Below are positions 5,339-26,281 of a stretch of DNA of 27,571 bases, in pieces (the first letter of the stretch is position 1; the number at the start of each line of letters is the position of its first letter). The translations under genes were made by a program, and so were the position numbers. The DNA is from a virus, in IMG/VR virus record IMGVR_UViG_3300017923_000008, positions 1 through 27,571 of that record; one strand, 5' to 3'. The notes below the pieces were generated by a model. The model searched no databases. It was given only the letters and a program-made list of their open reading frames with translations, and was not told the origin of the DNA.

Positions 5339-5341
5339 AAA

Positions 5342-5376
5342 GCAAAAACCCCGGCGTTGGGGGCCGGGGCTTTTGC
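5342..5376. terminator. Bidirectional rho-independent terminator
   Basis: A GC-rich stem (arms 5342-5355 and 5363-5376, one mismatch) is bordered by an A run on the left and a T run on the right. It can therefore end transcription from both directions. It lies between the + strand packaging/minor-head genes and the - strand neck/portal pair, exactly where two converging transcripts must stop. Confidence 0.85.
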
Positions 5377-5424
5377 CACAGGAGTCAGTGAGGTCACAGG
5401 AGCTTGCAAGAACGGGGCTGGCCG

Positions 5425-8373: not shown

Positions 8374-8423
8374 GCCCCTTCCCTGCCCGTCTGAACAACT
8401 TTTGAACGACAAGGAGCGCAATC

Positions 8424-8804
8424 ATGACTCAAAACTTTGGAATCAATAGTAACTCGGTGACCCCGAATACGGTGTTGGGCGACCATCCGCCCGTGACCAA
8501 GGCAATTACCATTGCCACCACCGGCGCGGAAGCCATCTACACACGCGGCACGGTCCTGGGGAAAATCACCGCCTCCGGCTTGTATGCGGGCCTGAACCCG
8601 GACGCCGCCGACGGCTCCGAGACTGCCGCCGTGGTCCTGCTCGACGACGTAACCGTGGACGACACCAACGACGAGCCCGCTGTCGCCCTGGTCCACGGTG
8701 TGGTCATTGCTGACGAATTGGTCTGGACGCACGACGGCATTACCGAAGCCGAACAGACTGCGGCCCTGGACCAACTCGAAGCCGCTGGAATCTACAACAA
8801 ATAA
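8424..8804 (+). CDS. Head decoration protein, lambda gpD family
   Basis: A 126-residue protein upstream of the major capsid gene, with AAGGAG before the ATG. It shows the typical Thr/Ala/Asp-rich pattern of gpD-type decoration proteins: TRGTVLGKIT, then GLYAGLNPDAADGSETAAVVL, and VHGVVIADELVW. Such proteins form trimers on the shell at three-fold positions and stabilise the expanded head. The neighbouring E-family capsid gene supports the call. Confidence 0.88.
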   Translation: MTQNFGINSNSVTPNTVLGDHPPVTKAITIATTGAEAIYTRGTVLGKITASGLYAGLNPDAADGSETAAVVLLDDVTVDDTNDEPAVALVHGVVIADELVWTHDGITEAEQTAALDQLEAAGIYNK

Positions 8805-8817
8805 AGGGAGATAGACG

Positions 8818-9837
8818 ATGCCTATTCCTTTTGACGAATTCAAATGGCGCAACATGACCCGCGCCATTAACGCGGTCAAGCCCGCCCCGCAGATGCTTTT
8901 GTCCACCATCTTTTCCGAATCGAACTCCAACGAGACGGACACAATCGACGTGGACATTACCCTGGGCGGCAAGGAAGTCGTGCCGTTTGTGTCTCCCGTT
9001 GAAGGCGGCACGGTTGTCGGCAAGCTGGGCCAGGAAATGCGGAGCGTCAAAACGCCTCGCGTTCGCCCCAAAAAGCAGTTCACCGCGCAAGAGCTTTTGA
9101 CCACCCGGCCCGCCGGACAAACCTTCTACGCCACCGGAGCTGGGGACATTAACCGTGCCCGCCAGCGTAAAGTCGGCCAAGAACTGACCGACCTGCGCCG
9201 CCGTGTGGATATCACGAAAGAGTGGATGTGCGGCCAAGCCCTGTCTGGCACCATCACCGTTGCCCAAGACAACCTCGCCTTTGAAATCGACTACCTGATG
9301 CCCTCCGCGCACAAGCCGACGGCCTCCCCGCTTTGGGACGACACGGACCCGACTGTTGAGGCCGACTTGCAGACCTGGGCGGACCTTATCGCGGAAGGGT
9401 CCGGTTCCGGCCCGACCATGTGCGTCATGGGCGCAAACGCGGCCAAGGCGTTTTTGGCCCATGCCAAAGATAGCAAGTGGTTCGACGCCCGCCGGGTCAA
9501 CGCCGGTAATCTGTCCTGGGACGTAAACAACGACTACCTGGGCAACGGCTACGGCATTGAGTTTTACCGCTACGCCAAAAAGCTGACCGACGGTAGCGGC
9601 ACGACCGCCCCGGTCATACCCTCCAATGTCGCCATTTTCATTAACCCCAACGCCCGCATCACCCTGGAACACGGGGTCATTCTGGACCTGGATGCCAACG
9701 CCCGCGTGGTTGGTGAGTATTTCTCCAAGTCCTGGCTGGAAAAGGACCCGTCCGGCCTGTGGATGTTGGCTGAATCCCGCCCTCTGCCCGTACTGTGGGA
9801 ACCGGAAGCCATTGTCTACGCTACCGTAACCTCCTAA
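8818..9837 (+). CDS. Major capsid protein, lambda gpE family
   Basis: A 339-residue protein, a normal length for E-family capsid proteins. The N-terminal part has the family pattern (IDVDITLGGKEVVPFVSP, RPKKQFTAQELL), the middle has LRRRVDITKEWMCGQAL, and the C-terminal domain has SNVAIFINPNARITLEHG and ends WEPEAIVYATV. It forms the icosahedral shell with an HK97 fold. A purine-rich GGGAG site precedes the ATG. It follows the decoration protein by 13 bases, as in lambda (D then E). Confidence 0.95.
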   Translation: MPIPFDEFKWRNMTRAINAVKPAPQMLLSTIFSESNSNETDTIDVDITLGGKEVVPFVSPVEGGTVVGKLGQEMRSVKTPRVRPKKQFTAQELLTTRPAGQTFYATGAGDINRARQRKVGQELTDLRRRVDITKEWMCGQALSGTITVAQDNLAFEIDYLMPSAHKPTASPLWDDTDPTVEADLQTWADLIAEGSGSGPTMCVMGANAAKAFLAHAKDSKWFDARRVNAGNLSWDVNNDYLGNGYGIEFYRYAKKLTDGSGTTAPVIPSNVAIFINPNARITLEHGVILDLDANARVVGEYFSKSWLEKDPSGLWMLAESRPLPVLWEPEAIVYATVTS

Positions 9838-9854
9838 CCCCTGCTCCCTCTCAA

Positions 9855-9889
9855 GGGGAACCGGGTCCCGTCCTCCTGCCCGGTTCCCC
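9855..9889. other. Strong hairpin between capsid and lysis genes
   Basis: Perfect 11-bp inverted repeat (9855-9865 and 9879-9889) with a 13-base loop. No T run follows on the + strand, so it is not a standard terminator. It could be an RNA-processing or stability element that separates very high capsid expression from the lysis genes, or a weak attenuator. Confidence 0.6.
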
Positions 9890-9913
9890 ACACTATAACC
9901 ACAAGGCGGAGCC

Positions 9914-10357
9914 ATGACGAACTGGAGCAAAGTCAAACATTTCCTGCCGAAAGAATGGGGCGACGACCCGCGCAAAGCAAGCCCCTTGTTGGTCCATGCC
10001 GTGGACGAGCTACGGGGCTTCATTTCTGCCGTATCCGGCAAAGACGTGCCAATCCATATCCATGTCTGTTGGTCGCAAGGCGGCCACAGTCCGCAATCGT
10101 ATCATTACACCGGGCAAGCGGTGGACCTGCATTTTGAGCCGGTGGTGTCTTACGCGGTGCAAATGGCCTGTATTTTGTCCATGACGCAATTTGGCGGCAT
10201 TGGCTTTTACCCGGATTGGAATTCTCCGGGCTGGCACCTGGACATGCGGAATGAATCGCCGCGTATCGTTTGGACCCGGCGCAACTCAGAGTATCTTTAC
10301 AGTCCGCTCCGGCTCACCGAAGCGGTCCACGCGGCTGACAAAGCCAAAGGATGGTGA
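9914..10357 (+). CDS. Endolysin, peptidase M15 family
   Basis: A 147-residue zinc peptidase of the M15A type. The SxHxxGxAxD signature is at residues 62-71 (SYHYTGQAVD, giving His64 and Asp71), and WHLD at 107-110 provides the second His ligand (His108) and Asp110. Enzymes of this family cut peptide cross-bridges of peptidoglycan. No signal peptide is visible, so export depends on the holin that follows. The neighbouring holin and spanin genes make lysis the likely role, as opposed to a virion-bound wall enzyme. Confidence 0.88.
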   Translation: MTNWSKVKHFLPKEWGDDPRKASPLLVHAVDELRGFISAVSGKDVPIHIHVCWSQGGHSPQSYHYTGQAVDLHFEPVVSYAVQMACILSMTQFGGIGFYPDWNSPGWHLDMRNESPRIVWTRRNSEYLYSPLRLTEAVHAADKAKGW

Positions 10358-10359
10358 AA

Positions 10360-10731
10360 ATGGACGTGAACCTTGCACCGCTGATGAATTACGGAGTGGA
10401 AATCCTGGGCATGGTCCTCATGGCCCTGGGGTCCTGGGCCGCGTCGTGGCTGGCCCACAAGTTCAAACTCGACTCCCTGGAACCGGAATTGGACCGGATT
10501 ATCACCGAGGGGGTCCGGTTTGCACGGCGGCAGGTCAAGGGCCTGGTGGGCAATCAAGTGGGTGTCCATGTGGACAACGAGATTGCCGGGAAAGCCTTGC
10601 AATACGTTGCTGACAACGGCCCCAAGACCGCCAAAAAATTAGGTTACACGCCTGAACAACTCCGGGCGCGGATTGAAGCATACCTTGATGTAGCAAACGA
10701 GGCCGACAATGCCGGTGGCGGGACTGATTAA
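10360..10731 (+). CDS. Holin-like membrane protein
   Basis: A 123-residue protein with one N-terminal membrane segment (YGVEILGMVLMALGSWAASW, about residues 10-29), followed by a long helical, charged cytoplasmic region. This resembles holins of the LL-H type, although I call the family from layout. The ATG at 10360 lies 9 bases after AAAGG and 2 bases after the endolysin stop; an ATG at 10351 would overlap that stop. Holins open the inner membrane and set lysis time. Confidence 0.65.
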   Translation: MDVNLAPLMNYGVEILGMVLMALGSWAASWLAHKFKLDSLEPELDRIITEGVRFARRQVKGLVGNQVGVHVDNEIAGKALQYVADNGPKTAKKLGYTPEQLRARIEAYLDVANEADNAGGGTD

Positions 10732-10927
10732 AGCAATAGGGGCGGTCCTGGGGCAAATCCTGTCCGCCCTGCCGTACCTGCTGACCTACAAGGCCGGGAA
10801 AGACTCTGTGACCAAGGAGAACGCCGAAAATGCGGCCCGGATACAACGCAAGCAACTGGAAATCGCTGCTCGCCGCCGTGCTTCTCGCGCTGATATTTTG
10901 CGCCGGATGCGCGACGGCGAACTATAA
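10709..10927 (+). CDS. Probable inner-membrane spanin (Rz-like)
   Basis: A 72-residue protein with an N-terminal hydrophobic helix (LIKAIGAVLGQILSALPYLL) followed by a highly charged, Arg/Glu-rich helix to the C-terminus. This is the layout of an i-spanin, but it is shorter than classical Rz. Its start overlaps the holin end by 23 bases. The Rz1-like lipoprotein gene begins inside it in another frame, the hallmark nested arrangement of Rz/Rz1. No sequence motif proves the call. Confidence 0.6.
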   Translation: MPVAGLIKAIGAVLGQILSALPYLLTYKAGKDSVTKENAENAARIQRKQLEIAARRRASRADILRRMRDGEL

Positions 10928-11075
10928 CGATTGCCCGCCCTGGCCGGAGGCCGGTCCCAAAGTCGCTGATGAACTCCGACGACTCCCTGAATCAGAATAC
11001 CCCGCACTCTGGAACTGGATTTATCGCCTCGACGTTTTGAAACAACAGTTAGACGCCGGAGACGAAGCCGAATGA
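10830..11075 (+). CDS. Outer-membrane spanin lipoprotein (Rz1-like)
   Basis: An 81-residue lipoprotein precursor. The signal segment SLLAAVLLALIFCAG is followed by Cys27, the probable lipidation site; the -3 position is Cys rather than Leu, which is slightly unusual. The mature part (NDCPPWPEAGPKVADEL, then WNWIYRLDVLKQQL) resembles Rz1-type o-spanins. AAGGAG lies about 9 bases before the ATG, inside the i-spanin gene. With the i-spanin it would fuse inner and outer membranes at lysis, so the host has an outer membrane. Confidence 0.75.
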   Translation: MRPGYNASNWKSLLAAVLLALIFCAGCATANYNDCPPWPEAGPKVADELRRLPESEYPALWNWIYRLDVLKQQLDAGDEAE

Positions 11076-11410
11076 CCGAAGACGATGCTATCAGAAACAT
11101 TAACCGGCAACTGCAAGAACAGGGACGACACCTGGAACGCCAGGGTGAAAAGCTGGACAGCATACAATCGACGCTTCAGCAAATCGCTGTCCAGGACGAA
11201 CAAATCCGGCAACTGCAAGACCAGCAGTCGGCAATGTGGGGCAAAATCGACTTTCTTTGCGCGTCTGACGGCCCGTTGGCTCAGGTCAGACAATGGCAAG
11301 CCGGTTGCCCGCGAAATCAAATCAAATACCTGTGGGTGGTCGTCATTCCAATGGGCCTGACAATGCTCGGAACGGCCCTCGCGCTTATCAAACTCACGAC
11401 CCAACTGTGA
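11072..11410 (+). CDS. Coiled-coil protein with C-terminal membrane helix
   Basis: A 112-residue protein. Residues 5-65 are a Gln/Glu/Leu-rich coiled coil (RQLQEQGRHLERQGEKL), and residues about 86-108 form one membrane segment (YLWVVVIPMGLTMLGTALAL). Its ATG overlaps the spanin stop as ATGA. Similar tail-anchored coiled-coil proteins occur at the end of lysis cassettes in other phages; the function is not established. It might tune lysis or assist holin assembly. Confidence 0.6.
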   Translation: MTEDDAIRNINRQLQEQGRHLERQGEKLDSIQSTLQQIAVQDEQIRQLQDQQSAMWGKIDFLCASDGPLAQVRQWQAGCPRNQIKYLWVVVIPMGLTMLGTALALIKLTTQL

Positions 11411-11417
11411 GGCAGAC

Positions 11418-11813
11418 ATGGCCTACGCCACGATAGATGACCTGTACGAAGCTGTGCCCGAAGCCAAGATTGTCCCTTTGGTGGATGACGAGGGCGACGG
11501 GTTACAAGTGGGGGCACGGATTGACGCGGCCCTGGACCGGGCCACGGACGAAATCGACGCCCGCCTAGAGGGCATTTACGACCTGCCCCTTGACCCTGTG
11601 CCTGACCGGGCGCGGGCTTTGTGCGTGGACATGGCGATTTTTCACCTGTTTTCCCGTGTTCAAGAGGAAATCAGCCCGACCCGGAAGCTGAAATACGAGA
11701 ACGCCCTGGCGTTCCTGGAAGACGTGCGGGACGGCAAGACGGCCCTGGTCAAAGCGGACGGCCAGGAAGCCGAACCAAGTCCGTCTGCGGGGCTGAGGCT
11801 TTATGCCATATAG
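11418..11813 (+). CDS. Mu gp36-like head-tail connector (DUF1320)
   Basis: A 131-residue protein with the DUF1320 pattern: MAYATIDDLYEAVPE at the start, RIDAALDRATDEIDARLEGIY, and YDLPLDP followed by ALCVDMAIFHL. In Mu-like phages the homologue lies between capsid and tail genes and is thought to form part of the head-to-tail joint. Its end overlaps the next gene by 11 bases. The lysis genes separate it from the capsid gene. Confidence 0.88.
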   Translation: MAYATIDDLYEAVPEAKIVPLVDDEGDGLQVGARIDAALDRATDEIDARLEGIYDLPLDPVPDRARALCVDMAIFHLFSRVQEEISPTRKLKYENALAFLEDVRDGKTALVKADGQEAEPSPSAGLRLYAI

Positions 11814-12249
11814 TGTTTTGGACGTTGAACAGCTTTTGCTTGCCAAACTCCAAGAAGCGGAGGGCATTGGGGTCCGCACTATCCGCGAGTATCAAGGCGA
11901 ACTCGAACAGGACTTGAATAGCATTGTGGCGCAATGGCCCGCACTTTTCCCGGCGTATGTCGAATCGTCATTTGAGGAAACCCAACGCCGGACCTTTGAG
12001 AATCAGACCTGGGATTTGTTTGTCGGGGACTTGTCTTACAAGCCGCGTGAATCACGGCGCGGTGGCGCAAACAACCCTGGAACTTACGCCATGCTTTCAT
12101 GGCTTCATGCGAACTTGCGGAAGGTAGTCTTGGCTTCCGGTTTAATGCCGGTGAGAATTACAGGCCAGGAAGCCCTTGCTTACAGCGATATGCACGGCAT
12201 TTCTCTTTATGTCGTGCGCCTTGCAATCGGACAACACTACAACGACTAG
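11803..12249 (+). CDS. Mu gp37-like tail completion protein (DUF1834)
   Basis: A 148-residue protein following the gp36-like gene, in the same order as in Mu. It begins MPYSVLDVEQLLLAKL and has the family-like RTFENQTWDLFVGDLSY region and a C-terminal strand-rich part ending VVRLAIGQHYND. Proteins at this position cap the tail tube and join it to the head. The call combines moderate sequence recognition with clear gene-order support. Confidence 0.75.
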   Translation: MPYSVLDVEQLLLAKLQEAEGIGVRTIREYQGELEQDLNSIVAQWPALFPAYVESSFEETQRRTFENQTWDLFVGDLSYKPRESRRGGANNPGTYAMLSWLHANLRKVVLASGLMPVRITGQEALAYSDMHGISLYVVRLAIGQHYND

Positions 12250-12259
12250 GAGGCCGCAA

Positions 12260-13030
12260 ATGCCTGTCAGCCCGAACACTGAAAACTATATGTACGGAAA
12301 GGGCGAACTGTTTTTCAAGCCCGACGGTGCAACCGGCTACATGCACCTGGGCAACTGTCCCGCTTTTTCTATCTCTGTCGAACTTGAGAAGGCCGAACAC
12401 TACTCTAGCATGGCCGGAACCCGCGAAAAGGACTTATCCAAAGTCACGCAGAAGACTGCAAGCTCCAGCATCACCTTGGAGGAATTCTCCGTTCAGAACA
12501 TGAACCTTGTGCTTATGGGCGGAACCCCAAGCACGTCTTCGCAAACATCTTCGACTCTGGACGGTGTAGAAGTGACCACCGTTGCCGACCAGTATGTGCC
12601 CATCCAAGAGGGGACCATGCGGCTGTCCAATGTGGTTGTCGAGGACGACCCCACAAGCCCCACCACGCAATACGAGGAAGGCGTGGATTATCTTGTGAAC
12701 CGGGAATCCGGGATGATTATGGCCCTGTCTACCGGGTCGATTTCTGGAACCTGCTACGTCTCCGCAGACGCGGCGGCCCTGGACATTTCCACTGTCAATG
12801 CCCTGGCCGAAAGCTCCACGTCCGGGGAACTGTACTTTGTCGGCAACCCTGACATTGGCCCGAACTGGCAGGTGCGCGGCTGGAAAGTCGAACTCTCTTT
12901 GTCCGGGGAACTCCCGTTCATTTCCGAGGACATTGCCCAACTGTCGGTGGATGCAGAGTTCCAGGCCGACCGGAACAACCACCCTGCCGCCCCGTTCTTT
13001 GAGGCCGTCAATCTGTCTGCCGGTGCTTAG
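12260..13030 (+). CDS. Major tail tube protein with inserted beta module
   Basis: A 256-residue protein from the ATG at 12260, preceded by a strong TAGGAGG. Position before the G/GT-type chaperones and tape measure identifies it as the tail tube subunit. The ends look tube-like (YMYGKGELFFKPDG at the start, GWKVELSLSGELPFI near the end). The middle (about residues 105-175) contains EEGVDYLVNRESGMIMALS, a module related to segments in three other tail proteins of this phage, and probably projects from the tube surface as decoration. Confidence 0.82.
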   Translation: MPVSPNTENYMYGKGELFFKPDGATGYMHLGNCPAFSISVELEKAEHYSSMAGTREKDLSKVTQKTASSSITLEEFSVQNMNLVLMGGTPSTSSQTSSTLDGVEVTTVADQYVPIQEGTMRLSNVVVEDDPTSPTTQYEEGVDYLVNRESGMIMALSTGSISGTCYVSADAAALDISTVNALAESSTSGELYFVGNPDIGPNWQVRGWKVELSLSGELPFISEDIAQLSVDAEFQADRNNHPAAPFFEAVNLSAGA

Positions 13031-13040
13031 GGGGGAATAA

Positions 13041-13418
13041 ATGAGGAAGCGCGACGTAGTACGCATTGATGACCGGGAAATCACCGTCAAAGAACTTACA
13101 GTTCAGGACGTTCTTGAAATGTTTGACTTCCAGGAAGGGGACAACTTTTGGACCCTGGCCCAACGGCACTTGCCGAAGGCAACGGACCTGAGCGTTGAAG
13201 ACATGCAGAAAATGGCCCCGTCCGAACTGGAAACGGTCTTTGAGAAGTGGAAAGAGGTGAACGCTTCTTTTTTCAGGATAGCCAGGGCGTTAGGTCTGAA
13301 CAGCGTCCTGGCGCAGATGAAGGATGCCGTCGTAGCCGACTTCTACAACTCGTTTTTCGGCTCATTGAAGACGGACACACACACGCCTGGAGCTACGGAT
13401 GGTCAGCCTTCTGCCTAG
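13041..13418 (+). CDS. Tail assembly chaperone, gpG-like
   Basis: A 125-residue protein between the tail tube and tape measure, the standard position of tail assembly chaperones that coat the tape measure before tube polymerisation. The sequence is mostly helical, with DVLEMFDFQEGDNFWTLAQ and ALGLNSVLAQMKDAVV. A second frame continues past its stop and overlaps the tape measure start, as in G/GT pairs. Two possible -1 slip sites lie in the last 150 bases. No sequence match is claimed beyond layout. Confidence 0.8.
   Translation: MRKRDVVRIDDREITVKELTVQDVLEMFDFQEGDNFWTLAQRHLPKATDLSVEDMQKMAPSELETVFEKWKEVNASFFRIARALGLNSVLAQMKDAVVADFYNSFFGSLKTDTHTPGATDGQPSA
13268..13274 (+). other. Candidate -1 slippery heptamer (T TTT TTC)
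   Basis: In the G-like reading frame this is a perfect X XXY YYZ site. If used, it would place about 84 bases of less protein-like sequence in the fusion, which argues against it. Confidence 0.45.
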
Positions 13419-13534
13419 CCTGTGAGGAAAATACGAAGCTCAGGCAGGAGCGAATGAAAGACACCGCTCTTGCCTGTCGCTTCGCCTATTACATGAAAGA
13501 CAAGCACTGGAAGGAATGGATAAATGGCCCGTGA
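13275..13534 (+). CDS. GT-type frameshift extension of the tail chaperone
   Basis: Reading in the -1 frame relative to the G-like gene gives an open frame through to the TGA at 13532-13534. The plausible protein part is RLIEDGHTHAWSYGWSAF, then CEENTKLRQERMKDTALA and YYMKDKHWKEWINGP. It has no start codon with a ribosome binding site, so it is expected as a -1 frameshift fusion with the G-like protein. Its last bases overlap the tape measure ATG. The T-domain of such fusions recruits the tube protein to the chaperone-coated tape measure. The start given is the earliest slip position; the later site at 13352-13358 gives the better-looking protein. Confidence 0.72.
13352..13358 (+). other. Candidate -1 slippery heptamer (G TTT TTC)
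   Basis: In-frame G TTT TTC located where the G-like frame loses protein-like quality and the -1 frame gains it (SFF then RLIEDGH). The first base is not T, so P-site re-pairing would be imperfect; the A-site slip from TTC to TTT is good. Confidence 0.5.
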
Positions 13535-16502
13535 CAACACCATTGAACTGCTAATTAAAGCGCGTGACCGGGCCACGAGACAAGTAAAAGGCGTTGCTCG
13601 TAGCGTAGAGGTCTTGAAAACCAGGGCTGACGCGGCGAGGAACGCCTTTTTTTCGTTGCAAACCGCCATTGCGGGAATCGGCGCGGGGCTTGCCGCACGG
13701 TCTATCTACAAAGCTGGCGAGGGCTTTGAACAGACCATGACCGAGGTGCTTGGCATAGCCCGCGCCACCCGTGACGAGTTTGAAGCGTTGGAAGCCCAGG
13801 CCCGAAAAATGGGCGAAACCACGGAATGGTCAGCGTCACAGGCCGGGCAAGCCCTGAAATTCATGTCTATGGCGGGCATGACAGCCGAGCAGTCCGTCAA
13901 GGCCCTCCCGGGTGTTTTGGACCTTGCCACGGCTGGACAAATCGACCTTGCGCGGGCGTCGGACATTGCCACCAACGCCCTGTCTGCCATGCGGCTCCCG
14001 GTGGAAGAACTGTCTCGTGTCAACGACACTTTTGTTCAGACCACCACGTCAAGCAACACCAACATCGAAATGATGGCCGAATCTTTTAAATACGCCGCCC
14101 CTGTTGCGGCTGGATTTGGCTACGACGTTGCCGAGCTTTCGGCTTTAATCGGCATCTTGGGCAATAACGGTATCCAGGCGTCACAAGCGGGTACACAACT
14201 CAAAGGGGCGTTCCAGGACGCCAGCAAGGTCTTTGACTATTACGAAGTGTCCGCAAAAAAGGCGAATGGCGAAACTAAAGACCTTGTTGACGCTTTGGAG
14301 CTTTTGGAGGAGCGCGGAGCCGAAGCCAACGAGATAATGAGCCTCTTTGGGGAACGGGCCGGGGTTGCAATCAACGCCTTGTTTGGCACGGGTTCTCAGG
14401 CCGTCCGCCAGTACATTGAATACATTCGTCAAGCAGAAGGGGCCAGCACGGACCTTGCGGCCACGTTCCGGTCTACGGCGCGAAATGCCAAAAAAGAGCT
14501 TTTCAGCGTCATTGAAAGCACTGCAATAGACGTTTTTGACAAATACAAAGTTCGGCTCAAAGCGGCGATACAGGCGACCACGGCCACCATCCGAGAAAAT
14601 AAAGAGCAGGTTGTCTCTTTTATTACCGGCTTAATTGACGGCCTGGGCGCGGCAATCCAGACCTTGGCGGGGCAGACGGCAACCGTTGTGGATACCCTGC
14701 AGAAGCCCTTGTCCGATATTTGGGACGCCCTGAACGAAATGTGGGACGGCTTTCGTAGTCTTCCAACGTGGGTCCAGGAAATCGGCATTGTGGCCGCGTT
14801 CTTGGGCGGGAAGAAAGGCAAAATCCTGGTTGGCGGCGCGGCGTTTCTCGCCGGGGAAATCAAAGATGCTTACCAGGGCATCCAGTATTGGACAGAGGGT
14901 CGTATTTCCTGGCGTGAGGCTAGCGATGAAGACACTTTCGAGAAGGCCCTGGAACGGGAGCGGGCCAAGGACCGGGAAGAACTCAAGGCGATGGACAAAG
15001 GAGACGGTGAAGAAGCCGGGGAAGAAAATGCCGAGGGCTTTTTTGCCGGGTGGCAACGCCGGTTCCGAGAACAGCAAGACAAACTCAAGAAGCAACTCGC
15101 CAAGATATTTGAAACCAACGAGAACGCGCCGGACAAGGGTTCTGGTGGGCCGAAACCGGACGACACGGGTACGACCTCGGAAGAAGTGACTGCCAAGCTC
15201 ACAGAGGCCGTCAAGCTTCAAAGTGCGCTTTCCCGTGCGCTGGCGAAGTCTCAAACGTCGCTGGCCGCTTTGGACGCTCAATACGAACGTCACGCAATCA
15301 ACGTAGAAGACTACTTCGAGCGCAAGCGGGAACTGGAACTGGAAGCGATTGACACCGAAATCAAATCGTTGCGCGAAACGGCAGAAGCCGAGGCGCGGCG
15401 GTTGCGTGAGCAAGCCGCCGTCACGTCGGACGCCAAAGAGCGTGAGCAACTACTTATCCAGGCCAAAAAGACCATGCTCAAGGCTGAGGACGAGATTGTC
15501 CAAAAGCTGGAAGAACGAAAACAGAAGGTCATTGAACTTGGGCTGGCCGAGGAAGAAGCCCGTGAAAAGCGCGAACAAGACCGGCGGAACCGGGAAAGCC
15601 TGTTGACGGACATTTCAGCGCGGGGTGCGGGGGAAAACGACCTGCAAGCCCAACAAGACGCTGAACTGGAACGGCTACGGAACAAACACGCCCAAGAGCT
15701 TCAACAACTCAAGGACTACGGGGCCAGCAAGCAGGAGATTTTGGAAGCCCAGGCCGCGCAAGAAATGGCTTTGGAGCGGCGCAAGGGCGAGATGCAACGG
15801 GAAATGTTCGACAAGCGCTTGTCCTGGGCGTCGAAGTTCACTGGCGACCTGGCGAACACAATGAAAGGGCTCTACGAATCCGGCGTGTTGCGGAATAAGC
15901 AGGCGTTGCAAGCTTACAAAGCCCTGGCGATCACGCAGACCATAATCGACACCTACCGGGCCGCTCAAGAGGCTTACGCTTCTATGGCCTCTATCCCCTA
16001 CGTTGGCCCTGCCCTTGGCGCGGCGGCGGCGGGTTCGGCTATTGCGGCGGGCATGGCCCGTGTCGCGGCAATCAAGAGCCAAAGCCTGGAAGGGTACGCT
16101 TACGGCGGCGAAATCCAGGGTCCGCGTCAAGGGGACCGTTCCGACAATGTGACTATCCGGGCGACTCCCGGCGAGTACATGATGGACCGGCCCACGGTGC
16201 GGCACTACGGCCTGGATGTAATGGAAGCCCTGCGCCAGCGGGCTATCCCGCGAGAAATATTCTCTGGTTTGGCCCTGCCGTCTTCCCGCCCTGCGTATGC
16301 CAAGGCCGGTTTTGCCTACGGCGGGCAGGTTGGCGCGGGGGCCGGAACGACTGCCGGACGTGACGCGGGAGACGTGACAATCGTGAATATCATGGACCGT
16401 TCCGAGCTTGACCGCTACATGGCGTCAAGTTCGGGGCAGAACGCCGTCCTGAATGTCATGTCGTCGCAAAAGCGGCGCGTACAAAGGATTTTGCAGGGAT
16501 GA
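13524..16502 (+). CDS. Tail tape measure protein
   Basis: A 992-residue protein, by far the largest tail gene before the tip. The N-terminus has the TP901-type tape measure domain (FEQTMTEVLGIARATRDEFE, KMGETTEWSASQAGQALKF, GNNGIQASQAGTQLKGAF; about residues 65-240). Hydrophobic stretches occur near residues 45-60, 365-385 and 415-440. A long Glu/Arg/Lys-rich coiled coil covers about 560-760, and a Gly/Ala-rich hydrophobic segment (YVGPALGAAAAGSAIAAG) lies near 825. At roughly 0.15 nm per residue it implies a tail near 150 nm. The start overlaps the GT-type extension; the end overlaps the next gene by ATGA. Residues 865-960 are Gly-rich. Confidence 0.96.
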   Translation: MARDNTIELLIKARDRATRQVKGVARSVEVLKTRADAARNAFFSLQTAIAGIGAGLAARSIYKAGEGFEQTMTEVLGIARATRDEFEALEAQARKMGETTEWSASQAGQALKFMSMAGMTAEQSVKALPGVLDLATAGQIDLARASDIATNALSAMRLPVEELSRVNDTFVQTTTSSNTNIEMMAESFKYAAPVAAGFGYDVAELSALIGILGNNGIQASQAGTQLKGAFQDASKVFDYYEVSAKKANGETKDLVDALELLEERGAEANEIMSLFGERAGVAINALFGTGSQAVRQYIEYIRQAEGASTDLAATFRSTARNAKKELFSVIESTAIDVFDKYKVRLKAAIQATTATIRENKEQVVSFITGLIDGLGAAIQTLAGQTATVVDTLQKPLSDIWDALNEMWDGFRSLPTWVQEIGIVAAFLGGKKGKILVGGAAFLAGEIKDAYQGIQYWTEGRISWREASDEDTFEKALERERAKDREELKAMDKGDGEEAGEENAEGFFAGWQRRFREQQDKLKKQLAKIFETNENAPDKGSGGPKPDDTGTTSEEVTAKLTEAVKLQSALSRALAKSQTSLAALDAQYERHAINVEDYFERKRELELEAIDTEIKSLRETAEAEARRLREQAAVTSDAKEREQLLIQAKKTMLKAEDEIVQKLEERKQKVIELGLAEEEAREKREQDRRNRESLLTDISARGAGENDLQAQQDAELERLRNKHAQELQQLKDYGASKQEILEAQAAQEMALERRKGEMQREMFDKRLSWASKFTGDLANTMKGLYESGVLRNKQALQAYKALAITQTIIDTYRAAQEAYASMASIPYVGPALGAAAAGSAIAAGMARVAAIKSQSLEGYAYGGEIQGPRQGDRSDNVTIRATPGEYMMDRPTVRHYGLDVMEALRQRAIPREIFSGLALPSSRPAYAKAGFAYGGQVGAGAGTTAGRDAGDVTIVNIMDRSELDRYMASSSGQNAVLNVMSSQKRRVQRILQG

Positions 16503-17689
16503 TTGCCGCAGACGTTTTCTTCCTCCGGCCCGATTGGGCGGAAAAAATGCAGGTAGAATACCGCTACGACACACTGACAAAGCGGGGGCTGACCGGCAAA
16601 GAGAAGCGGGTCAGCCTTCGCTCGTTGCCGGTCAAGTCGCTCCGATTTACGGGCAAAGCCCGGAACCCTGCCGAGGCAATCCGGGCGCGTCTCGCGCTCT
16701 ACAAGAATCAGGACAAAATCTTTGGGGTCCCTTTTTGGCCGGATGTGGTGGCGTTGACCGCCGACGTGGAGGCCGGGGCCCTGTCCTTGCCCGTGACCAC
16801 CACGGCGTACCGGCATTTTGACGGAGCCGTCGTTTTGACCAACGGGCAAGGGGCCTACGAAGTCGTGACCGGGACCGTGGCGGGTGGCACAACCCTGACT
16901 CTGGACACCGGGGCTGTCTACCCGTGGCCGGTCGGGACGCTCGTTTTGCCGTTTTTCCAGGCTTGGCTTGAGCCGAGCTTGACCGCCAAATCCGGCACTG
17001 CTGACGACTTGGCCGTGACCGTGCGCTTTGAAGAAGCCCACGCGGAGCAAATCGCCCTCCCCGCGCCGGACATTTCGGCGTTGCAGACATACCAAGGCTT
17101 GCCGCTGTTGCCTTCCCTGGTGGACTTCTCCGGGTCGTTGCACATGGCCGTAGGCCGCGACGTTGACGACTTCCAGGCATGGGGACCGCGCAATCGGTTT
17201 TCCCCGCAAGACTACCCCACACTGACCTACGATTGGGATTGGCAAGCTTTTGACCGGGGCATTTTGAAAAAGACCCTCGATTTATTCCGGCACTGCCGGG
17301 GACGCCTGGGCACGTTTTGGGGGCCGAGCCACGTCAGTGATTTAAAGCTCTCAGGGCCGTTCTCAGCGTCGGCAACCGACTTGCCCGTGGCTGACTCCGG
17401 GTTCGGGGAGTTCTTTCAGTTCTGTGGCGACCTGGGCCGGTTCCTGGCCCTTGTCTATGCTGACGGCACGGTGGTTTGTCGGGAGATTACCGCCTACAAC
17501 GCCGGACCTGGCACGATAACCCTGGACTCTGCACCTGGGAAGAACTGTCCAGGCCCGGACTATTGCAAGCTGTCTTTTATTACTCCGGCCCGGTTCGACA
17601 ATGATGCTTTTGAAATGGACTGGACCACGACAGACTCCGTGGCCGGGGCCGTAAAAATCAAATCGCTGTTAGGGGACGCAAATGCGTAG
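16499..17689 (+). CDS. Distal tail / tail tip adaptor protein
   Basis: A 396-residue protein at the position of the distal tail protein in GTA- and lambda-like tips, right after the tape measure. The C-terminal part has LDLFRHCRGRLGTFWGPSH, a pattern shared by proteins of this slot in which a fixed-size module ends with an FW.P-type motif. An internal pair of beta segments (GALSLPVTTTAYRHFDGAVV, and LSGPFSASATDLPVADSGF with following strands) appears duplicated. It probably forms a ring that connects the tube to the hub. Overlap with the tape measure (ATGA) and with the next gene (8 bases) marks a tightly coupled operon. Confidence 0.68.
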   Translation: MIAADVFFLRPDWAEKMQVEYRYDTLTKRGLTGKEKRVSLRSLPVKSLRFTGKARNPAEAIRARLALYKNQDKIFGVPFWPDVVALTADVEAGALSLPVTTTAYRHFDGAVVLTNGQGAYEVVTGTVAGGTTLTLDTGAVYPWPVGTLVLPFFQAWLEPSLTAKSGTADDLAVTVRFEEAHAEQIALPAPDISALQTYQGLPLLPSLVDFSGSLHMAVGRDVDDFQAWGPRNRFSPQDYPTLTYDWDWQAFDRGILKKTLDLFRHCRGRLGTFWGPSHVSDLKLSGPFSASATDLPVADSGFGEFFQFCGDLGRFLALVYADGTVVCREITAYNAGPGTITLDSAPGKNCPGPDYCKLSFITPARFDNDAFEMDWTTTDSVAGAVKIKSLLGDANA

Positions 17690-18695
17690 CGTGTCAGACG
17701 ACTATAAAGCCAACGAGCAAGCCAAAGAGGTCCGCCCCGCCGAGCTTTTCCACTTATGGGAAGACTCGGAAACCGGGCGGCATTGGTACTACACTTCCGG
17801 GGACGAGCCTGTCACGTTCAACGGCAAAGAATACGTTCCGGCAGGAATTACCCGCGAAAATCTGAGCTACGACACCGAGCTTCAAGCAACAAAGCTGTCC
17901 GTGACTGCCGGACACATTGACGAAGCCTTTCGGGATTATCTCGCGCAACAACCGACGGAACAGCTTTGGGTGTCACTGATGCGGGTACACCGGGACGACC
18001 CGAGCGAGGTCATGGTCCTCTTTATGGGCCAATGCTTGTCCGTGTCGTTCAAGGGGGCCACCGCAAAAGGGGAGTTCGCCGGGTTCCAAAAGTTTCTGCA
18101 AATGGAAATCCCGCGCTACCGCTATCAACCGCATTGCAACAACACACTTTTTGACGGGTTCTGCAAAATCCCGGTCCAGGACCATTCCTTTTTGGCTTTG
18201 GCGACGCCGGACACAACCGGGAAAGTGCTTTCTTTCGACGACTCTCAGGAGGACGTGGAAGCGCACACGGCGCACCTGGGCGAAGCGTTCACCGTCGGCT
18301 ACCCTTCGCCCACCTATGTCACCGTAACCGGCTACGACGAGGGCATAGACTACACCCTGGCCGGAAACGAGGTCACGGTGTTGTCGGACGGAAACATTAC
18401 CGAAGGCGAAACCCTGGAGGTCAAGTTTGGATACTCGTTTTCTTCCTTCGGAGACGGGTATTTCAGCCTGGGGTGGGTAGAGTTCCAGGGGCAAAAGCGG
18501 ATGATTGTTTCTCACGTCGGGCTGAATATCACCGTTCAGTATCCGTTCAACGATATGGCCGAAGGGGCCGGGGTCAAGCTCTACGCGGGGTGTGACCAGC
18601 GGATTGAAACCTGCCGGGACAAGTTCGACAACGTAAACAACTTTTTTGGAACCCCGTACATACCGCAAGAAAATCCGTCGGAGCGTATGTCGTGA
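17682..18695 (+). CDS. Tail hub protein, BR0599/DUF2163 type
   Basis: A 337-residue protein. The N-terminal part (PAELFHLWEDSETGRHWYYT, then AGITRENLSY) and the C-terminal part (YAGCDQRIETCRDKFDNVNN, FFGTPYIP) match the phage BR0599/DUF2163 family, equivalent to GTA gp13. Residues about 190-252 hold an inserted beta module (GYDEGIDYTLAGNEVTVLSD) that also occurs in the J-like and fibre proteins. CxxxC-type cysteines in the C-terminal part recall the iron-sulfur or metal site proposed for lambda gpL-like hub proteins, but this is uncertain. It links the distal tail protein to the host-specificity protein. Confidence 0.85.
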   Translation: MRSVSDDYKANEQAKEVRPAELFHLWEDSETGRHWYYTSGDEPVTFNGKEYVPAGITRENLSYDTELQATKLSVTAGHIDEAFRDYLAQQPTEQLWVSLMRVHRDDPSEVMVLFMGQCLSVSFKGATAKGEFAGFQKFLQMEIPRYRYQPHCNNTLFDGFCKIPVQDHSFLALATPDTTGKVLSFDDSQEDVEAHTAHLGEAFTVGYPSPTYVTVTGYDEGIDYTLAGNEVTVLSDGNITEGETLEVKFGYSFSSFGDGYFSLGWVEFQGQKRMIVSHVGLNITVQYPFNDMAEGAGVKLYAGCDQRIETCRDKFDNVNNFFGTPYIPQENPSERMS

Positions 18696-19144
18696 GCTAT
18701 TTTTTTGGAACAGATGAAGCAAAGGCCAATCTCAAAGCTGAGATGGACTCCTGGCTTGGAACTCCTTACCGCCACAGGGCGTCCGTCAAAGGGCGAGGCG
18801 CGGACTGCATCGGCTTTGTCGTGGGCGTTTTGCGGAACGTCGGCTACCGTGAACGGTTTAAGGTCCCGGACTACCCCAAAGATTGGCACCTGCACAACAT
18901 GGAATCCATCTTGTTGCGCGAGATACGGCGGCAGATGCGCGTCGAAGAACGCCACGTTGACGACCTGGAAAACGGGGACCTGCTCTTATTTTACTTTGGG
19001 CGCACGGTCAGCCATGCCGGTTTTGTATGGGGCCGGTGGGTCTATCATTCCGTGATTGGCATTGGCGTAGAACGGTTCGAGCTTACCGATGAAACATGGT
19101 TCCACCGCCGTAAATATAACATGAGGCTTTTGACATGGGCATAG
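18692..19144 (+). CDS. Tail tip peptidoglycan hydrolase, NlpC/P60 family
   Basis: A 150-residue protein with an NlpC/P60 core: WLGTPYRHRASVKGRGADC places the catalytic Cys at residue 39, and TVSHAGFVWG gives the catalytic His at 108. The equivalent GTA gp14 and the lambda gpK C-terminal domain sit between the hub and J proteins and open peptidoglycan during DNA entry. No Mov34-type second domain is present. Its ATG overlaps the hub stop by 4 bases and its end overlaps the J-like gene by 10 bases. Confidence 0.9.
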   Translation: MSYFFGTDEAKANLKAEMDSWLGTPYRHRASVKGRGADCIGFVVGVLRNVGYRERFKVPDYPKDWHLHNMESILLREIRRQMRVEERHVDDLENGDLLLFYFGRTVSHAGFVWGRWVYHSVIGIGVERFELTDETWFHRRKYNMRLLTWA

Positions 19145-22100
19145 GCGCAATTTCGTTTGCTATTGGCGCAATCGTCGTTGGTGCGTTGGTCGCCACGGCG
19201 TTTATGGCTCCACAAGACCCCAAGGCCGGACACCAAGACCCGCAAGCTTTGAAGTTTGCCACGAACAAGTTTGGCATTGCAATTCCGGAGGTCCTGGGGT
19301 GCGTCAAGCTGACCGGCAACTATCTTTTCCAATGCTGTGACCGCTCCGAGGAAATCACGCAGGACATGGAAGGCGGCAAAGGTGGCGGCGGAGGCGGCGG
19401 GGAAGTGGTCGTCGGACACAAATACTATGCGACGTTCGCCCTGGGTATTTGCCTTGGGCCTATTGATAAGATTTCCGCTATTTACAAAGACCAGGATTTG
19501 GTTTGGTCCGGGGAAATCTTGTGCCCGGAGGACGGGGTGGCGACGTTCCGAGTGGGAAAGACAGGGAACGTCACGATTTATTTTGGCACAGACACGCAAG
19601 AGCCGAACGCCAAATTCGGGAAAAAGGTCGGGGAATCGCTCAACCCGCCGTACCGCAATCTGTGTTGGGCATGGTTCAATGATGCTTACCTGGGAGAAAC
19701 GCCCCGCGTCCCGAACTATCATTTTGTCGTTCACCGCTACCCAGCTTACGCTTTTGACACCAACGACCACGGCGTTGTGTCCGGCATAGATTACAACCCG
19801 GCTCACGCAATTTGGCACATTCTGAACAACATGGTCGGCTTTCCTGAATCCTGGCTTGACCCGTCTTCGTTCCAAGCGGCGGCAGATAAGCTCTACGGCG
19901 AAGGCCGGGGCATCTCTATGTCGTTTGGGGAGGCCAAGCCTGCAATCGACTACATTGACAACCTGCTATCGCACGTCGTTGGCCGACTGCCTTACGGCGC
20001 AGACGGGCAGTTCCACTTGGATATTTTGCGCGACGATTACGACCGAGACGCCCTGCCCGTGATTGACGAATCCATTTGCACGGAACCGCCGACGATAAAG
20101 CGCAAGTCCTGGGCGGACACCGTGAACGAGGTCAAGGCCAAGTACACGGAGCGGTTTTACGAAACCGGGACAAGGGTGGCGATTGTCTTTTGCCTGTTTA
20201 TTGACGAATCGGGGGGGAGTTATACGCCTTCAAACAACGAGGCAGGGCCAGCAACACAGCAATGGTATGACGACTTGCAAGCACTAAGAAAAAAGCTTGC
20301 TGATATGTCTGAATATGCGGACGTTTATGCCAAAGTCTTTGATGTATATAGCTCAATGATAGCAGGGATTTTGCCGGAAGGAGAAAGCTGGCCTGACGAC
20401 GTTGCCGAGAGGGTGGACTGTTCACGTTCTCCATCTTTAGACTTTTTGAAAGACGAATTTCGTTCTCTTGTCCCTGGTCAATCTTCTGCGGCGACGAAAG
20501 CGTATTGTGTTTTGACCGTAGACACAAGCGGTTCAATGGACATGGGGACAATTGACCCGCCATTTTCAGAGTGGAAAGAATGGATACAAAGCGAGTATCC
20601 ACAGTTTGAGATGGTCCAGCACGACGAATCCAGGCCGGACGAACGCTGGCTTGACTGGATGAAAGACGACATTGACATGCCGCCACCGGGGGCGAACTAC
20701 CGCGAAAGCATCTCTGACCCCACCGCGCAGAACGTGGCGAATCAGAAAATCCAGGGCCGGGTCGTCTCTAAGACAATCGACGTGAACCTGTTTACCAGAA
20801 ACGAAAATGCAGTGTGGGCCGCGCAGGAGGTGTTGCGGAAAGAGAGCTATCCAGGGGCGGAGCTTAAAGCGCAGGTCAACCGAGATGCATTTTACTTGCA
20901 ACCAGGGGACGTTTTTGCCTTTTCGTATGCGCCGTATGGTCTTCAAGAGGTGATTTTCCGGCTAAACCGGATTGAAGAAGAGAGCATCGAAACGGACGAA
21001 ATCAGCATATCGGCGGAGGAAGAATATACTGCCGTTGCTGAAACAATGGAGCTACCACCGCCACCAACTGACCGTTCTTCTGCGGCCCCGAGCTATGTCT
21101 TATCAGGGACGCCACAAGAAACCGTTGAAACGCACACGGCAAAATCGTCATTTTATTTGGGCAGTGAGAACCCCACGAAGGTCAGCATTGCCGGGTACAC
21201 GGAAGGGACGGATTACTCTGTGGAACCATCCACCGGTGAGGTCACGATACTGAACGGCGGTGGCGTCACAGAAGGCGAAAGTCTGGAAATCACCTACGAA
21301 TACAAGCCTGAACCTTCGGCGCGGATTATGGAGGCCCCGTATGTCCTGACAGGGGGCGAAATCAAAGTCATGCCGGTTGTCGCAAGGCCCAACAGCCTGA
21401 ACACGGGGTTCCGTCTTTATTTTTCGCTGTCAGGAGCGTCTTATACACAAATCCATTCCGATACCAACTTTTGCCCATTCGGTACGGTGTACGAAGAATA
21501 TCCAAAGACGTTCCAAATCGACGACCAACGAGGCCTGTATGTCCATTTTGAAACCGACGACGTAATGACCATTGAAGACACCACCCGGGAGGAAATGCTG
21601 TCTACAAAGAACCTTGCACTTGTCGGAGACGAAATTGTCACTTTCCAGGGCATCCAGCCTGTGACCGGGAACATTTACCAACTGACCGGCGTGTACCGGG
21701 GCCGGTTCGACACGACAATGCAGGTGCATCCTCGCGGGACAAGCTTTTACTTCTTGGGTGCGGGGTTCCCGAAGCTTGTCGGACACCCCGAACTTGTCCA
21801 AGGCGTCGAGCGGCTTTTCAAGGTCTGCCAGTATAACCCGCGTTATGTTGCGGACCCGGCTTTTGCATCACCCATATCGCTAACCCCTGCGGGGCGTGGC
21901 CGCGCACCGTACCAACCCGGCAATTTCCAGGCCAACGGAGAGCGCATCCACCCGGAATATACAATCGGGGTAGACCTTGCCTGGGCTGGCCGTGTCCGGG
22001 GGCAGGGGGCCGGAACGCAAGACCCGTCAAAGACAGACTCCACGGCTGGGCGCGAAGGCAACTTCCGGCTTGACGTTTATACGGGTGGAGCCTTGGCGTT

Positions 22101-23726: not shown

Positions 23727-24032
23727 ATGAGAGGTTTCCCTAAGTTATTAAAAACAAATAAAGATGTTTCTGTGGCAATGAGTCTTGACCCAAACAAGAC
23801 CAAACGCATTGTTCAAAAAATGTTGAATGAGCATAGGCAATGGAAAATATCAGGGAAGTTAAGTGTTGCTGATGTTGGGATTGCGGATGGAACACATAAG
23901 GTTGTTGAGGTTGCTGATGATGAAGGTTCTATAGTAGAAAAATACCAATATGAATTACGGGAAGACCCCGCATCTGCTTTGTCTCGTGTCGGACTATCTA
24001 TTCAAGAAGCGGAGGATATTGTAAATGGCTAA
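23727..24032 (+). CDS. Small protein upstream of the DGR target, unknown
   Basis: A 101-residue protein from the ATG at 23727 with TAGGAGG 7 bases upstream. The DNA is AT-rich like the end of the fibre gene. The sequence is basic at the start (RGFPKLLKTNKDVSVAMSLD), helical, and acidic at the C-terminus (LSIQEAEDIVNG). It is not Avd: it lacks that protein's basic four-helix character and lies upstream of the target. Its end overlaps the next start by 8 bases, so it may be a fibre chaperone or attachment subunit co-made with the variable protein. Confidence 0.7.
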   Translation: MRGFPKLLKTNKDVSVAMSLDPNKTKRIVQKMLNEHRQWKISGKLSVADVGIADGTHKVVEVADDEGSIVEKYQYELREDPASALSRVGLSIQEAEDIVNG

Positions 24033-25113
24033 TGAACTAAGCATTAAGTGGAAGGACGAAAACTCGTCTGAGTATTATATAAATGCCGAAAACCTGCACG
24101 AAGTCCATCCGGCACTGAACTCACTTCATGCTCCATTCTTGATGCCCGGAACAACGACCAATAGACACCTGTTGTTTAGGGCCAATACAGCAATAAAGTT
24201 GGTCAACGCAGGTATCCACAAAGTGTTTCAAAGCGGGAACGCAGATATTGAAATAAATGCTGAGTCCAATTTGGATACAGGTACAAGCCTTTCTGCCGGA
24301 ACCGATTATTATGTCTATGTGGTGGATAATGCCGATGGGATGTCAAGTTTGGTCGTATCACTGAACAGCACCTACCCCGACGGCTACACGGCGGACAATT
24401 CGCGCAAAATCGGCGGCTTCCACTGCCTCTGCGCGGACGTGGGCACGATCAGCGGGCACTATCTGTCCGGGTATGTTGCTGGAGACATTCTGCCGCAGTC
24501 GGTTTGGTGTCTTAACCACCGCCCCGAGTCCGAGCCCGAGGGCATGGTTTATGATCCTGGCACGGGCAAATGGGTGGATATCTACCTGGCCAGCGTGCAG
24601 TCCGGCGAGCTTGGCAGCGTCAACGGAGCGACCATTGCCGACGGAGCAAGTGCCGAGGCGTTTCATTGGTACAAGTTTGACCAATGGCTCAGGCGCATCA
24701 AAAAGCGGTTCCCGTTTCAGGGGGAGTTCGTATCAATGTCGCTCGGCTCGAACCAAGGCACGAACATCGCAGGCGACTCTGATCCAGGGACCACTGGCGG
24801 TCACAGCGACACTGCCGGGCGGCGTATGATCTCTGACATTGGCTGCGAGGATTGCTGTGGTGCGCTGTTTCAATGGGGTATTGAGGCAGCGGCATCCGGC
24901 GGCGGTACTGCGTGGTCAGACGCGTATGACTCTAACGATTCCGACGTGGCTGGACAGCATTACGAGGTTCCAAACCGGCCCCGGTTCGGCGGCTCTTGGG
25001 ACGATGGGTCGTGGTGCGGTTCGCGCGGTTCGGCTTGGAATAGTTCGCCGCTCGCTCTGTATTCGAATGACGGGGCGCGCGGTGTCGCGGAGCCGTCTAA
25101 ACGCGGACAGTAG
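24025..25113 (+). CDS. DGR target: variable tail fibre with C-type lectin domain
   Basis: A 362-residue protein. The N-terminal part (about 1-135) probably anchors it to the tail. The segment IGGFHCLCADVGTISGHYLS, then AGDILPQSVWCLNHRP, and the region GRRMISDIGCEDCCGALFQW are typical of DGR target proteins with an FGE/C-type lectin fold. The variable repeat encodes residues 318-356, with FGGSW, CGSRGSAW and GARGVAEP as the fixed scaffold and changeable residues between them. The fold tolerates wide surface variation and binds ligands, so this is most likely the adaptable receptor-binding protein. No reverse transcriptase or template repeat is found in the window. The N-terminal coding part is AT-rich and the C-terminal part GC-rich, marking a mosaic gene. 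Confidence 0.88.
   Translation: MANELSIKWKDENSSEYYINAENLHEVHPALNSLHAPFLMPGTTTNRHLLFRANTAIKLVNAGIHKVFQSGNADIEINAESNLDTGTSLSAGTDYYVYVVDNADGMSSLVVSLNSTYPDGYTADNSRKIGGFHCLCADVGTISGHYLSGYVAGDILPQSVWCLNHRPESEPEGMVYDPGTGKWVDIYLASVQSGELGSVNGATIADGASAEAFHWYKFDQWLRRIKKRFPFQGEFVSMSLGSNQGTNIAGDSDPGTTGGHSDTAGRRMISDIGCEDCCGALFQWGIEAAASGGGTAWSDAYDSNDSDVAGQHYEVPNRPRFGGSWDDGSWCGSRGSAWNSSPLALYSNDGARGVAEPSKRGQ
24976..25092 (+). repeat. DGR variable repeat, copy 1 (in gene)
   Basis: The 117-bp segment at the 3' end of the fibre gene matches the downstream copy at 99 of 117 positions. Its 3' end, GCGCGCGGTGTCGCGGAG, is GC-rich and identical in both copies, as expected for the initiation-of-mutagenic-homing (IMH) region. 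All differences fall in 11 codons (residues 320, 324, 326, 330, 339, 340, 344, 346, 348, 349, 350). Confidence 0.85.
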
Positions 25114-25158: not shown

Positions 25159-25275
25159 CGGCCCCAGTTCGGCGGCCAGTGGGGCGATGGGTCGAGGTGC
25201 GGTTCGCGCGGTTCGGCTTGGGGTGCTTCGCCGCTCGTTCTGGCTTCGTCTCGCTGGGCGCGCGGTGTCGCGGAG
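25159..25275 (+). repeat. DGR variable repeat, copy 2 (outside a normal gene)
   Basis: The same 117-bp unit 183 bases downstream. At seven differing sites neither copy has A, so it is not the template repeat. It follows the TAG of the fibre gene and has no start codon of its own with a ribosome binding site. It is in the same frame as the fibre gene, and an open frame extends from 25114 to a stop at 25372-25374. The bases upstream of it do not clearly resemble the matching part of the fibre gene, so it is a remnant or displaced repeat and not a simple long tandem duplication. Confidence 0.82.
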
Positions 25276-25293
25276 ACGTGTTGTCTGTCGCGG

Positions 25294-25317
25294 CCACTGC
25301 CCTGGTCCCGGCAGTGG
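25294..25317 (+). other. Hairpin downstream of variable repeat copy 2
   Basis: A perfect 8-bp stem (25294-25301 with 25310-25317) and 8-base loop, extendable by two G-T pairs and one C-G pair. It starts 19 bases after the repeat. DGR target sites often carry a short stem-loop shortly after the IMH that promotes homing. The loop here is larger than the usual tetraloop. Confidence 0.5.
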
Positions 25318-25323
25318 TTGCCC

Positions 25324-26214
25324 TTACTCCACGGCTGGGCGCACCGGCCCTGTCCAGTAGGCCGCAATGGCTGACCGGCAAAACACCCAACGGAGGGCCG
25401 GGCAGGCTAGTAGTAGGTGCGAACGTCTGCCCGGCCAAAACAATTTTAGGATGACATGAAGCGACACGGCGGCAAGGCGACGTTCCCGAAGCCGTGCAAG
25501 GAAGGCGTCGGACACCGGCACGAACCGGTCAGACTGCCGGGTCTTCGTGCCGCGAATCCGCACGGCTTTACGTTCCCAATGCACGTCCTCCCATTTGATT
25601 GACAGCAATTCCGTTTCTCCCGGCCTCGCGCCCAGGTGCCAAGCAACCTCTATGGCCCAAGCTAAATGCGGGGCGGATTCGCGCATGATTTTGCGGAGGT
25701 CGGCCACGGTCAGGCGCACGTCGCGCTTTCGGGGCTGTGGCATTGTCCACTGCGCGAGCGGGTTACGGGCGCATGTCCCTTCCAGGACGGCGAACCGGTA
25801 TGCGCTTTTGAGGTAGCCGGTGTACCTGTGCCTGGTCGTCGGGGAGGCGTCCGCGAAAATCCGTTCAACCGCGTCCAGGATTTCGCGCATGGAAAGCTCG
25901 TCGGCGGGGGCGTGGGATAGCTCCGGCAGGACTTTTTGGTTCAGCACGGAGGCCCATTCCTTGAGCCAGCGCGGCTTGCGGCCCTGGCCCTTTTTCCAGA
26001 CGAGCCAATCCTGGCAGATTTCCGCAAGATACGGCTTGGACCGCTCCTGCTCCGGGAGCGGAGCTTTCTGCTGTTTGGCGGCCTTAATCTGGTGGTCGTA
26101 AGCTTGCGCTTGGCGATACCCGGACTTGCCCGGCCCGATAGGAACGCGCTTATTTTTGCCGTCTTGGTCCCGATACCGGACGCACCAGACCCCGTTTCGT
26201 TTTTCGACGCTCAT
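25324..26214 (-). pseudogene. int: Tyrosine integrase, C-terminal catalytic part missing
   Basis: A leftward gene for a phage tyrosine recombinase. It begins MSVEKRNGVWCVRYRD (ATG at 26214) with an AP2/Arm-type N-terminal domain. The core-binding domain is ICQDWLVWKKGQGRKPRWLK and onward, and the catalytic domain starts with LGARPGETELLSIKWEDV (Arg of box I) and the TKT Lys hairpin. Similarity stops near 25450 after AFLARLRERRLAAV. The remaining 40 or so codons to the stop at 25324 have no HxxR, no second His/Trp and no catalytic Tyr. About 100 residues are lost, so it should be inactive. The break lies just beside variable repeat copy 2. An in-frame TTG start at 26253 is also possible. Confidence 0.85.
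25396..25436. other. 10-bp inverted repeat between VR copy 2 and integrase
   Basis: Perfect GC-rich 10-bp arms (25396-25405 and 25427-25436) around 21 bases. No T run follows on either strand, so it is a poor terminator. It sits at the border where integrase similarity ends, and may be part of a rearrangement end or attachment region. Confidence 0.45.
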
Positions 26215-26233
26215 GCCCGTTGTGTACCCGTAG

Positions 26234-26251
26234 GTTGACGGAGTAGTCAAC
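26234..26251. other. 6-bp palindromic repeat before integrase
   Basis: GTTGAC and GTCAAC separated by six bases, directly beside the terminator and about 20 bases upstream of the integrase start. It may be an operator or arm-type binding site; it is too short to be sure. Confidence 0.3.
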
Positions 26252-26281
26252 AAAAAAGCCCCGACCAGGAAGGCCGAGGCT
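26252..26281 (-). terminator. Rho-independent terminator (leftward)
   Basis: Read on the - strand, a 10-bp stem with two G-T pairs (26272-26281 with 26257-26266) and a five-base loop is followed by six T (26257-26252). It lies between the 59-residue basic protein gene and integrase, so most leftward transcription should stop before integrase. Confidence 0.75.

Follow-up and report, generated by a model that had tools for sequence, protein, structure and literature searches.

The window analysed here, a stretch of 27,571 nucleotides of viral DNA, is an IMG/VR fragment whose record spans just these 27.6 kb. It contains two 117-bp repeats, copy 1 at 24976-25092 and copy 2 at 25159-25275 (both plus strand), and the question raised by this locus is whether copy 2 is a second target of a diversity-generating retroelement (DGR) or the remains of its template repeat (TR).

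The repeat pair and its target gene

When the two copies were compared pairwise, they were identical at 99 of 117 positions (84 %). The 18 mismatches are confined to 11 codons, and the remaining 28 codons are equal base for base. The amino acid swaps between copy 1 and copy 2 are R/Q, S/Q, D/G, W/R, N/G, S/A, A/V, Y/A, N/S, D/R and G/W, and one of the 18 mismatches falls at a third codon position. An A is present in one copy at 11 of the mismatch sites (copy 1 at eight, copy 2 at three) and in neither copy at the other seven. These counts had all been given in a sequence-only reading of the window, and each of them was reproduced. A repeat search of the whole window returned no long repeat besides this pair.

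Copy 1 lies at the 3' end of a gene at 24025-25113 (plus strand), of which it is the variable repeat (VR). This gene is predicted to encode a Mtd-like receptor-binding tail protein of 362 aa with a C-terminal C-type-lectin variable domain that contains the VR. The protein matched Pfam PF21916 (mtd_2nd, 6.6e-30), PHROG 11262 (tail protein, 2.9e-70) and solved structures of Bordetella phage Mtd (1yu3 and others; E-value 3e-24), the structural match extending across residues 75-356 with the variable domain included. By these matches, the ORF product is homologous to the major tropism determinant of the Bordetella phage. The repeat alignment places the VR-type 3' end GAGCC at 25090-25094, matching nearly all VRs of the relatives, for which the target protein and DGR reverse transcriptases (RTs) served as search queries.

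Other genes of the window were also recorded. A PAPS-reductase-like ORF (154-798; PHROG 2302, 2.8e-44) lies near the left end. At 1756-4143, the terminase large subunit is split just past the Walker A lysine (HGK...SEF) by an intein-like insert of ~330 residues, which ends in HN, has Leu and not Cys or Ser as its first residue, and carries a Cys (CIQV) near its end; a Leu start with a Cys near the end is presumably the arrangement of class 3 inteins. Between 5425 and 7223, a portal-like gene and a neighbouring ORF are on the minus strand amid plus-strand head genes.

Copy 2 starts 45 bp past the stop codon of the target gene (TAG, 25111-25113) and is untranslated. It is in the frame of the target gene merely by accident of spacing, and the ORF list holds no gene of its own that reads copy 2 in this frame, nor a start codon for one. 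The mismatches had been described as purely non-synonymous. All 11 codons do change the amino acid, but as copy 2 is untranslated the label is only notional there. The mismatch pattern is a legacy of template AAY codons and not of selection acting on copy 2.

Copy 2 and the template-repeat locus

Among the surveyed relatives, the locus order is VR, short gap, TR, spacer and RT. The TR is the second copy and adjoins the RT, and ~100 related DGRs hold their TR at the place of copy 2. When the window was compared with L007, the nearest relative with an intact cassette, a single unbroken alignment ran through VR, gap, TR, spacer and RT start, in which copy 2 aligns to the TR of L007. The spacing between VR and TR is similar (183 bp in the window and 191 bp in L007), and the upstream flank of copy 2 is of TR type.

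The 3' end of copy 2 also has the TR-type IMH* signature, GAGAC at 25273-25277 (plus strand), where the IMH of the VR reads GAGCC. The TRs of the relatives mostly end in GATAC and those of ~ten loci in GAGAC, and their VRs end in GAGCC. A VR-type IMH in copy 2, derived from GATAC by a change to GAG, was also considered and ruled out, as the ~ten relatives carry natural GAGAC TRs.

A conserved structured TR-RNA spacer (Sp) follows at 25321-25467 (plus strand) and runs into the RT start codon. It was detected with a covariance model built from 40 other DGRs, with the window and the L007 clade excluded. The window scored 88.5 bits (E-value 6.6e-22) and L007 was lower at 78.1 bits. A comparison with Rfam gave no match. 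The model match ends in ATGAAGCGACACGGCGG, the RT start (MKRHGG). Since the spacer is intact, the loss of A in copy 2 described below is not general decay.

Between IMH* and spacer, the window has an extra stretch with a hairpin at 25290-25321 (plus strand), consisting of a 12-bp stem and an 8-nt loop. Its folding energy with DNA parameters is -10.9 kcal/mol, the most stable at this place among 72 DGRs, and the hairpin is weak in L007. An extra stretch of similar length is confined to L007-L010 and a few others; the distance from IMH* to RT is 179 in the window and 189 in the L007 clade, with a median of 138.

The RT gene itself has been lost. Its first six codons, MKRHGG, remain at 25456-25473 (plus strand; relatives begin MKRHGN), the rest is deleted, and a search across the window found no RT besides this remnant. 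Within ~12 bp of the remnant lies the breakpoint with a facing gene, a tyrosine integrase at 25480-26253 (minus strand) that lacks its C-terminal catalytic part. The integrase matched just profile positions 2-81 of 172 of PF00589, gave an integrase match to PHROG 1, and matched phage integrases by tblastn.

Because it has the TR-type position, flanks and GAGAC end together with the spacer and the RT start, copy 2 is, by comparison with the relatives, the TR's own locus and not a second target. The sequence-only reading had taken copy 2 for a displaced or orphan target whose template must lie elsewhere. In favour of that view, copy 2 is VR-like in base content and the window has no A-rich TR. 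However, copy 2 lacks a start codon and lies downstream of the stop, no coding gene ends in it, its 3' end is of IMH* type, and a second target is found at this place in none of the relatives. When a TR acting in trans was sought, nothing similar was found in plasmids, and phages gave one short match covering just part of the target gene. We consider an orphan target very improbable. The earlier statement that copy 2 is not the TR holds in so far as it is not a working template, but it occupies the TR locus itself.

Adenine loss in the window and its relatives

The 18 mismatch sites were examined in the TRs of the relatives. Fifteen of them are A in the aligned TR of L007 (P = 2.6e-10), and 13-16 are A in the TRs of three other relatives. 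Thus, the two copies are a DGR repeat pair, each written (nearly) independently of the other from one A-bearing template, as had been proposed. The expectation that all 18 sites would be A in the TR held for most of them; sites 24983/25166, 24996/25179 and 25072/25255 are not A in the TR of L007, and they may be a few ordinary changes in copy 2 or places where the ancestral TR was different.

In 100 related TR-VR pairs, 1641 of 1729 interior mismatches (95 %) have A on the TR side, compared with 3 of 18 in the window (P = 3e-17). Since these sites are mostly A in L007 and so rarely A in copy 2, the TR locus now holds a mutagenised product from which the template adenines are gone. At eight sites copy 1 has an A that copy 2 lacks. 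Copy 2 in its present form was therefore not the source of copy 1, and the A loss in copy 2 would be later than the writing of copy 1.

A consensus-A set of sites was also built on five TRs, one of which (L059) was out of register and its line disregarded. Copy 2 retained A at 4 of 27 consensus-A sites compared with 35 % in ordinary VRs, a weak difference (P = 0.017) that suggests A depletion beyond one mutagenesis round. Copy 1 and copy 2 agreed at 12 of the 27 sites, with 7.7 expected (P = 0.055), which leaves room for some common history.

The reading that we prefer, with a probability of roughly 0.8, is that the window carries a dead DGR, in which copy 1 is a VR written from an A-bearing TR and copy 2 is the TR locus, overwritten by adenine-mutagenised sequence. 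Adenine-specific change is the hallmark of the DGR RT. The likely order of events would be that copy 1 was written, the TR was eroded and the RT was then deleted. Copy 1 would have been last rewritten from an adenine-bearing TR. The source of the new TR sequence would be either mutagenised cDNA of the DGR itself, recombined into the TR, or a VR by which the TR was converted. With each round, adenines would be stripped irreversibly, and a TR turned target would thus ratchet itself to death. Once the TR was without adenines, loss of the RT would be costless, and one deletion may have taken the RT body and the end of the facing integrase.

The DGR of the window is known from one metagenomic contig, as an assembly and not as reads, and VR reads placed at the TR could in principle have produced copy 2. 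VR and TR share up to ~26 bp, and the junction of RT remnant and integrase could be a chimera. A near-identical sibling contig, IMGVR_UViG_3300017922_000017 (98.9 %), differs around 728-740, confirms most of the window from 113 to 19513 and ends before the DGR. A misassembled RT/integrase junction would leave copy 2 unaffected either way. In addition, the sequences flanking copy 2 on either side are TR-specific, the exact sequence in common with copy 1 at its edges is just ~18-20 bp, and copy 2 differs from copy 1. These features and the relatives described next make an assembly artefact improbable.

Four separate metagenomes yielded one assembly each of a single phage clade, L007-L010. The full RT is present in L007, L009 and L010, and the contig of L008 stops short of it. 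Their TRs vary at 15 sites, each of which is A in L007, with C, G or T as the replacement (P = 6e-13). L009 and L010 have six differences in the TR, none in the VR and none in 8,216 bases outside the repeats (Fisher's test, 8e-12); with the VR counted, there are no differences in 8,337 non-TR bases. For comparison, TRs were identical in about a dozen other close pairs drawn from different records, none of which showed such strictly A-to-N changes. In most other close pairs the TRs are identical or less diverged than the flank, as in L002/L003 (flank divergence 4 %, TR 0) and L036/L092 (16 % and 0). Thus, A-to-N change of the TR is shown, by comparison of these assemblies, to happen in a related phage clade still bearing the RT.

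Two mechanisms are compatible with the preferred reading of a dead DGR. The first is self-homing: the TR-RNA is copied into mutagenised cDNA, which recombines into the TR as its best match, and A is lost in each round. This mechanism is consistent with the restriction of the L007-L010 changes to A sites, with the identical VRs and different TRs of L009 and L010, and with an A depletion of copy 2 that exceeds one round. The long stretch between IMH* and spacer common to the window and the L007 clade, with its strong hairpin in the window, is also in its favour, since BPP-1 targets require a hairpin after the IMH (PMC3240598). However, the hairpin is weak in L007, and the IMH* of L007-L010 and of copy 2 looks TR-type and intact. 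We put this mechanism at somewhat less than an even chance, and the hairpin after the TR as its cause is a lead, not a result.

The second mechanism is VR-to-TR gene conversion, in which ordinary recombination copies a stretch of VR, the phage's own or that of a co-infecting sibling, into the TR. L024 (3077-3391) resembles such an event and thus argues against self-homing. Its TR equals its VR over the first 83 bp except for one codon, with codons of VR type there, and is A-rich just in the last 33 bp; 1 of 9 remaining As differs in the VR in the former part and 6 of 9 in the latter. The TR of L024 is likely a conversion product. In L008, a TR tract has lost all nine As and has a sharp edge, and copy 2 carries GGT TCG GCT, which is common in selected VRs. 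On the other hand, copy 2 is no copy of copy 1. When copying of the L008-L010 tracts from known VRs was examined, the mutated TR bases matched the clade's known VRs no better than chance (combined P = 0.14), which is also in line with self-homing. Conversion is therefore considered possible, at a lower probability than self-homing.

It is more doubtful that the TR of this lineage is in general a homing target, with mutagenised cDNA returning to overwrite the template, such that the DGR varies its own template and then burns out. If true, template self-variation would narrow which VR sites can vary, and diversification by the DGR would be self-limiting. The additional stretch with its hairpin downstream of IMH* might then be the feature that turns the TR into a target.

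Further losses were seen among the relatives. L085 (4749-4874, record 2832461067) has the TR codon TCT where its VR has GAC and the TR of the related L087 has AAC, likely a small TR erosion of one codon. L006 (6303-6360) has a deletion from mid-TR to beyond the RT gene; the VR is retained, and half of the TR and the RT are lost. The closest target gene is that of L005, and no TR lies within its short contig end. Together, L006 and L005 suggest that decay of the cassette has recurred in this phage group.

Comparison with known DGRs and significance

The locus resembles the DGR of Bordetella phage BPP-1 (mtd, avd, TR, brt) in several features: the target is a Mtd homologue whose gene carries the VR at its 3' terminus, a GC-rich segment precedes IMH (VR) or IMH* (TR), and downstream of the TR come a structured spacer and the RT. 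Unlike BPP-1, the window has no avd between VR and TR, its RT is deleted and its TR is stripped of adenines. The BPP-1 TR "remains unchanged throughout the process", and the mismatches between IMH and IMH* set the directionality (PMC3240598). With the Mtd-type phage DGRs of IMG/VR (L007-L010, L021, L093 and ~90 others), the window shares the layout, the conserved spacer and the GATAC or GAGAC versus GAGCC ends. These retain an A-rich TR and an RT, unlike the window, and the TR is partly eroded in L008-L010.

Degraded DGR loci, such as that of Thiohalocapsa PB-PSB1, have likewise lost DGR components while the target gene stays (PMC10907252). Decay proceeded via transposons in that case, whereas in the window the TR itself appears A-mutagenised. 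According to the main text of a global survey, just seven clusters have <75 % of their mismatches at TR adenines (PMC8144416). The window is like these in its weak apparent adenine bias, for which that text gives no cause, whereas in the window the weak bias is explained by A loss from the TR. The window also lacks the RT on which surveys of this kind rely, and it is a warning that surveys based on adenine bias or on the RT will miss such loci.

Templates are described as unchanging, which is what lets DGR diversification repeat indefinitely (PMC3240598, PMC10907252). A literature search, conducted outside subscription journals and supplements, found no report of A-specific TR self-mutation in nature. 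In the window, the template appears rewritten with the element's own adenine-specific signature. In the sister clade with intact RTs, the TR shifts from sample to sample, and the target and the remaining genome are constant. These loci provide natural sequences for testing the rule that information flows from TR to VR only, and they suggest that DGRs have an inherent route to their own death or to a narrower repertoire.
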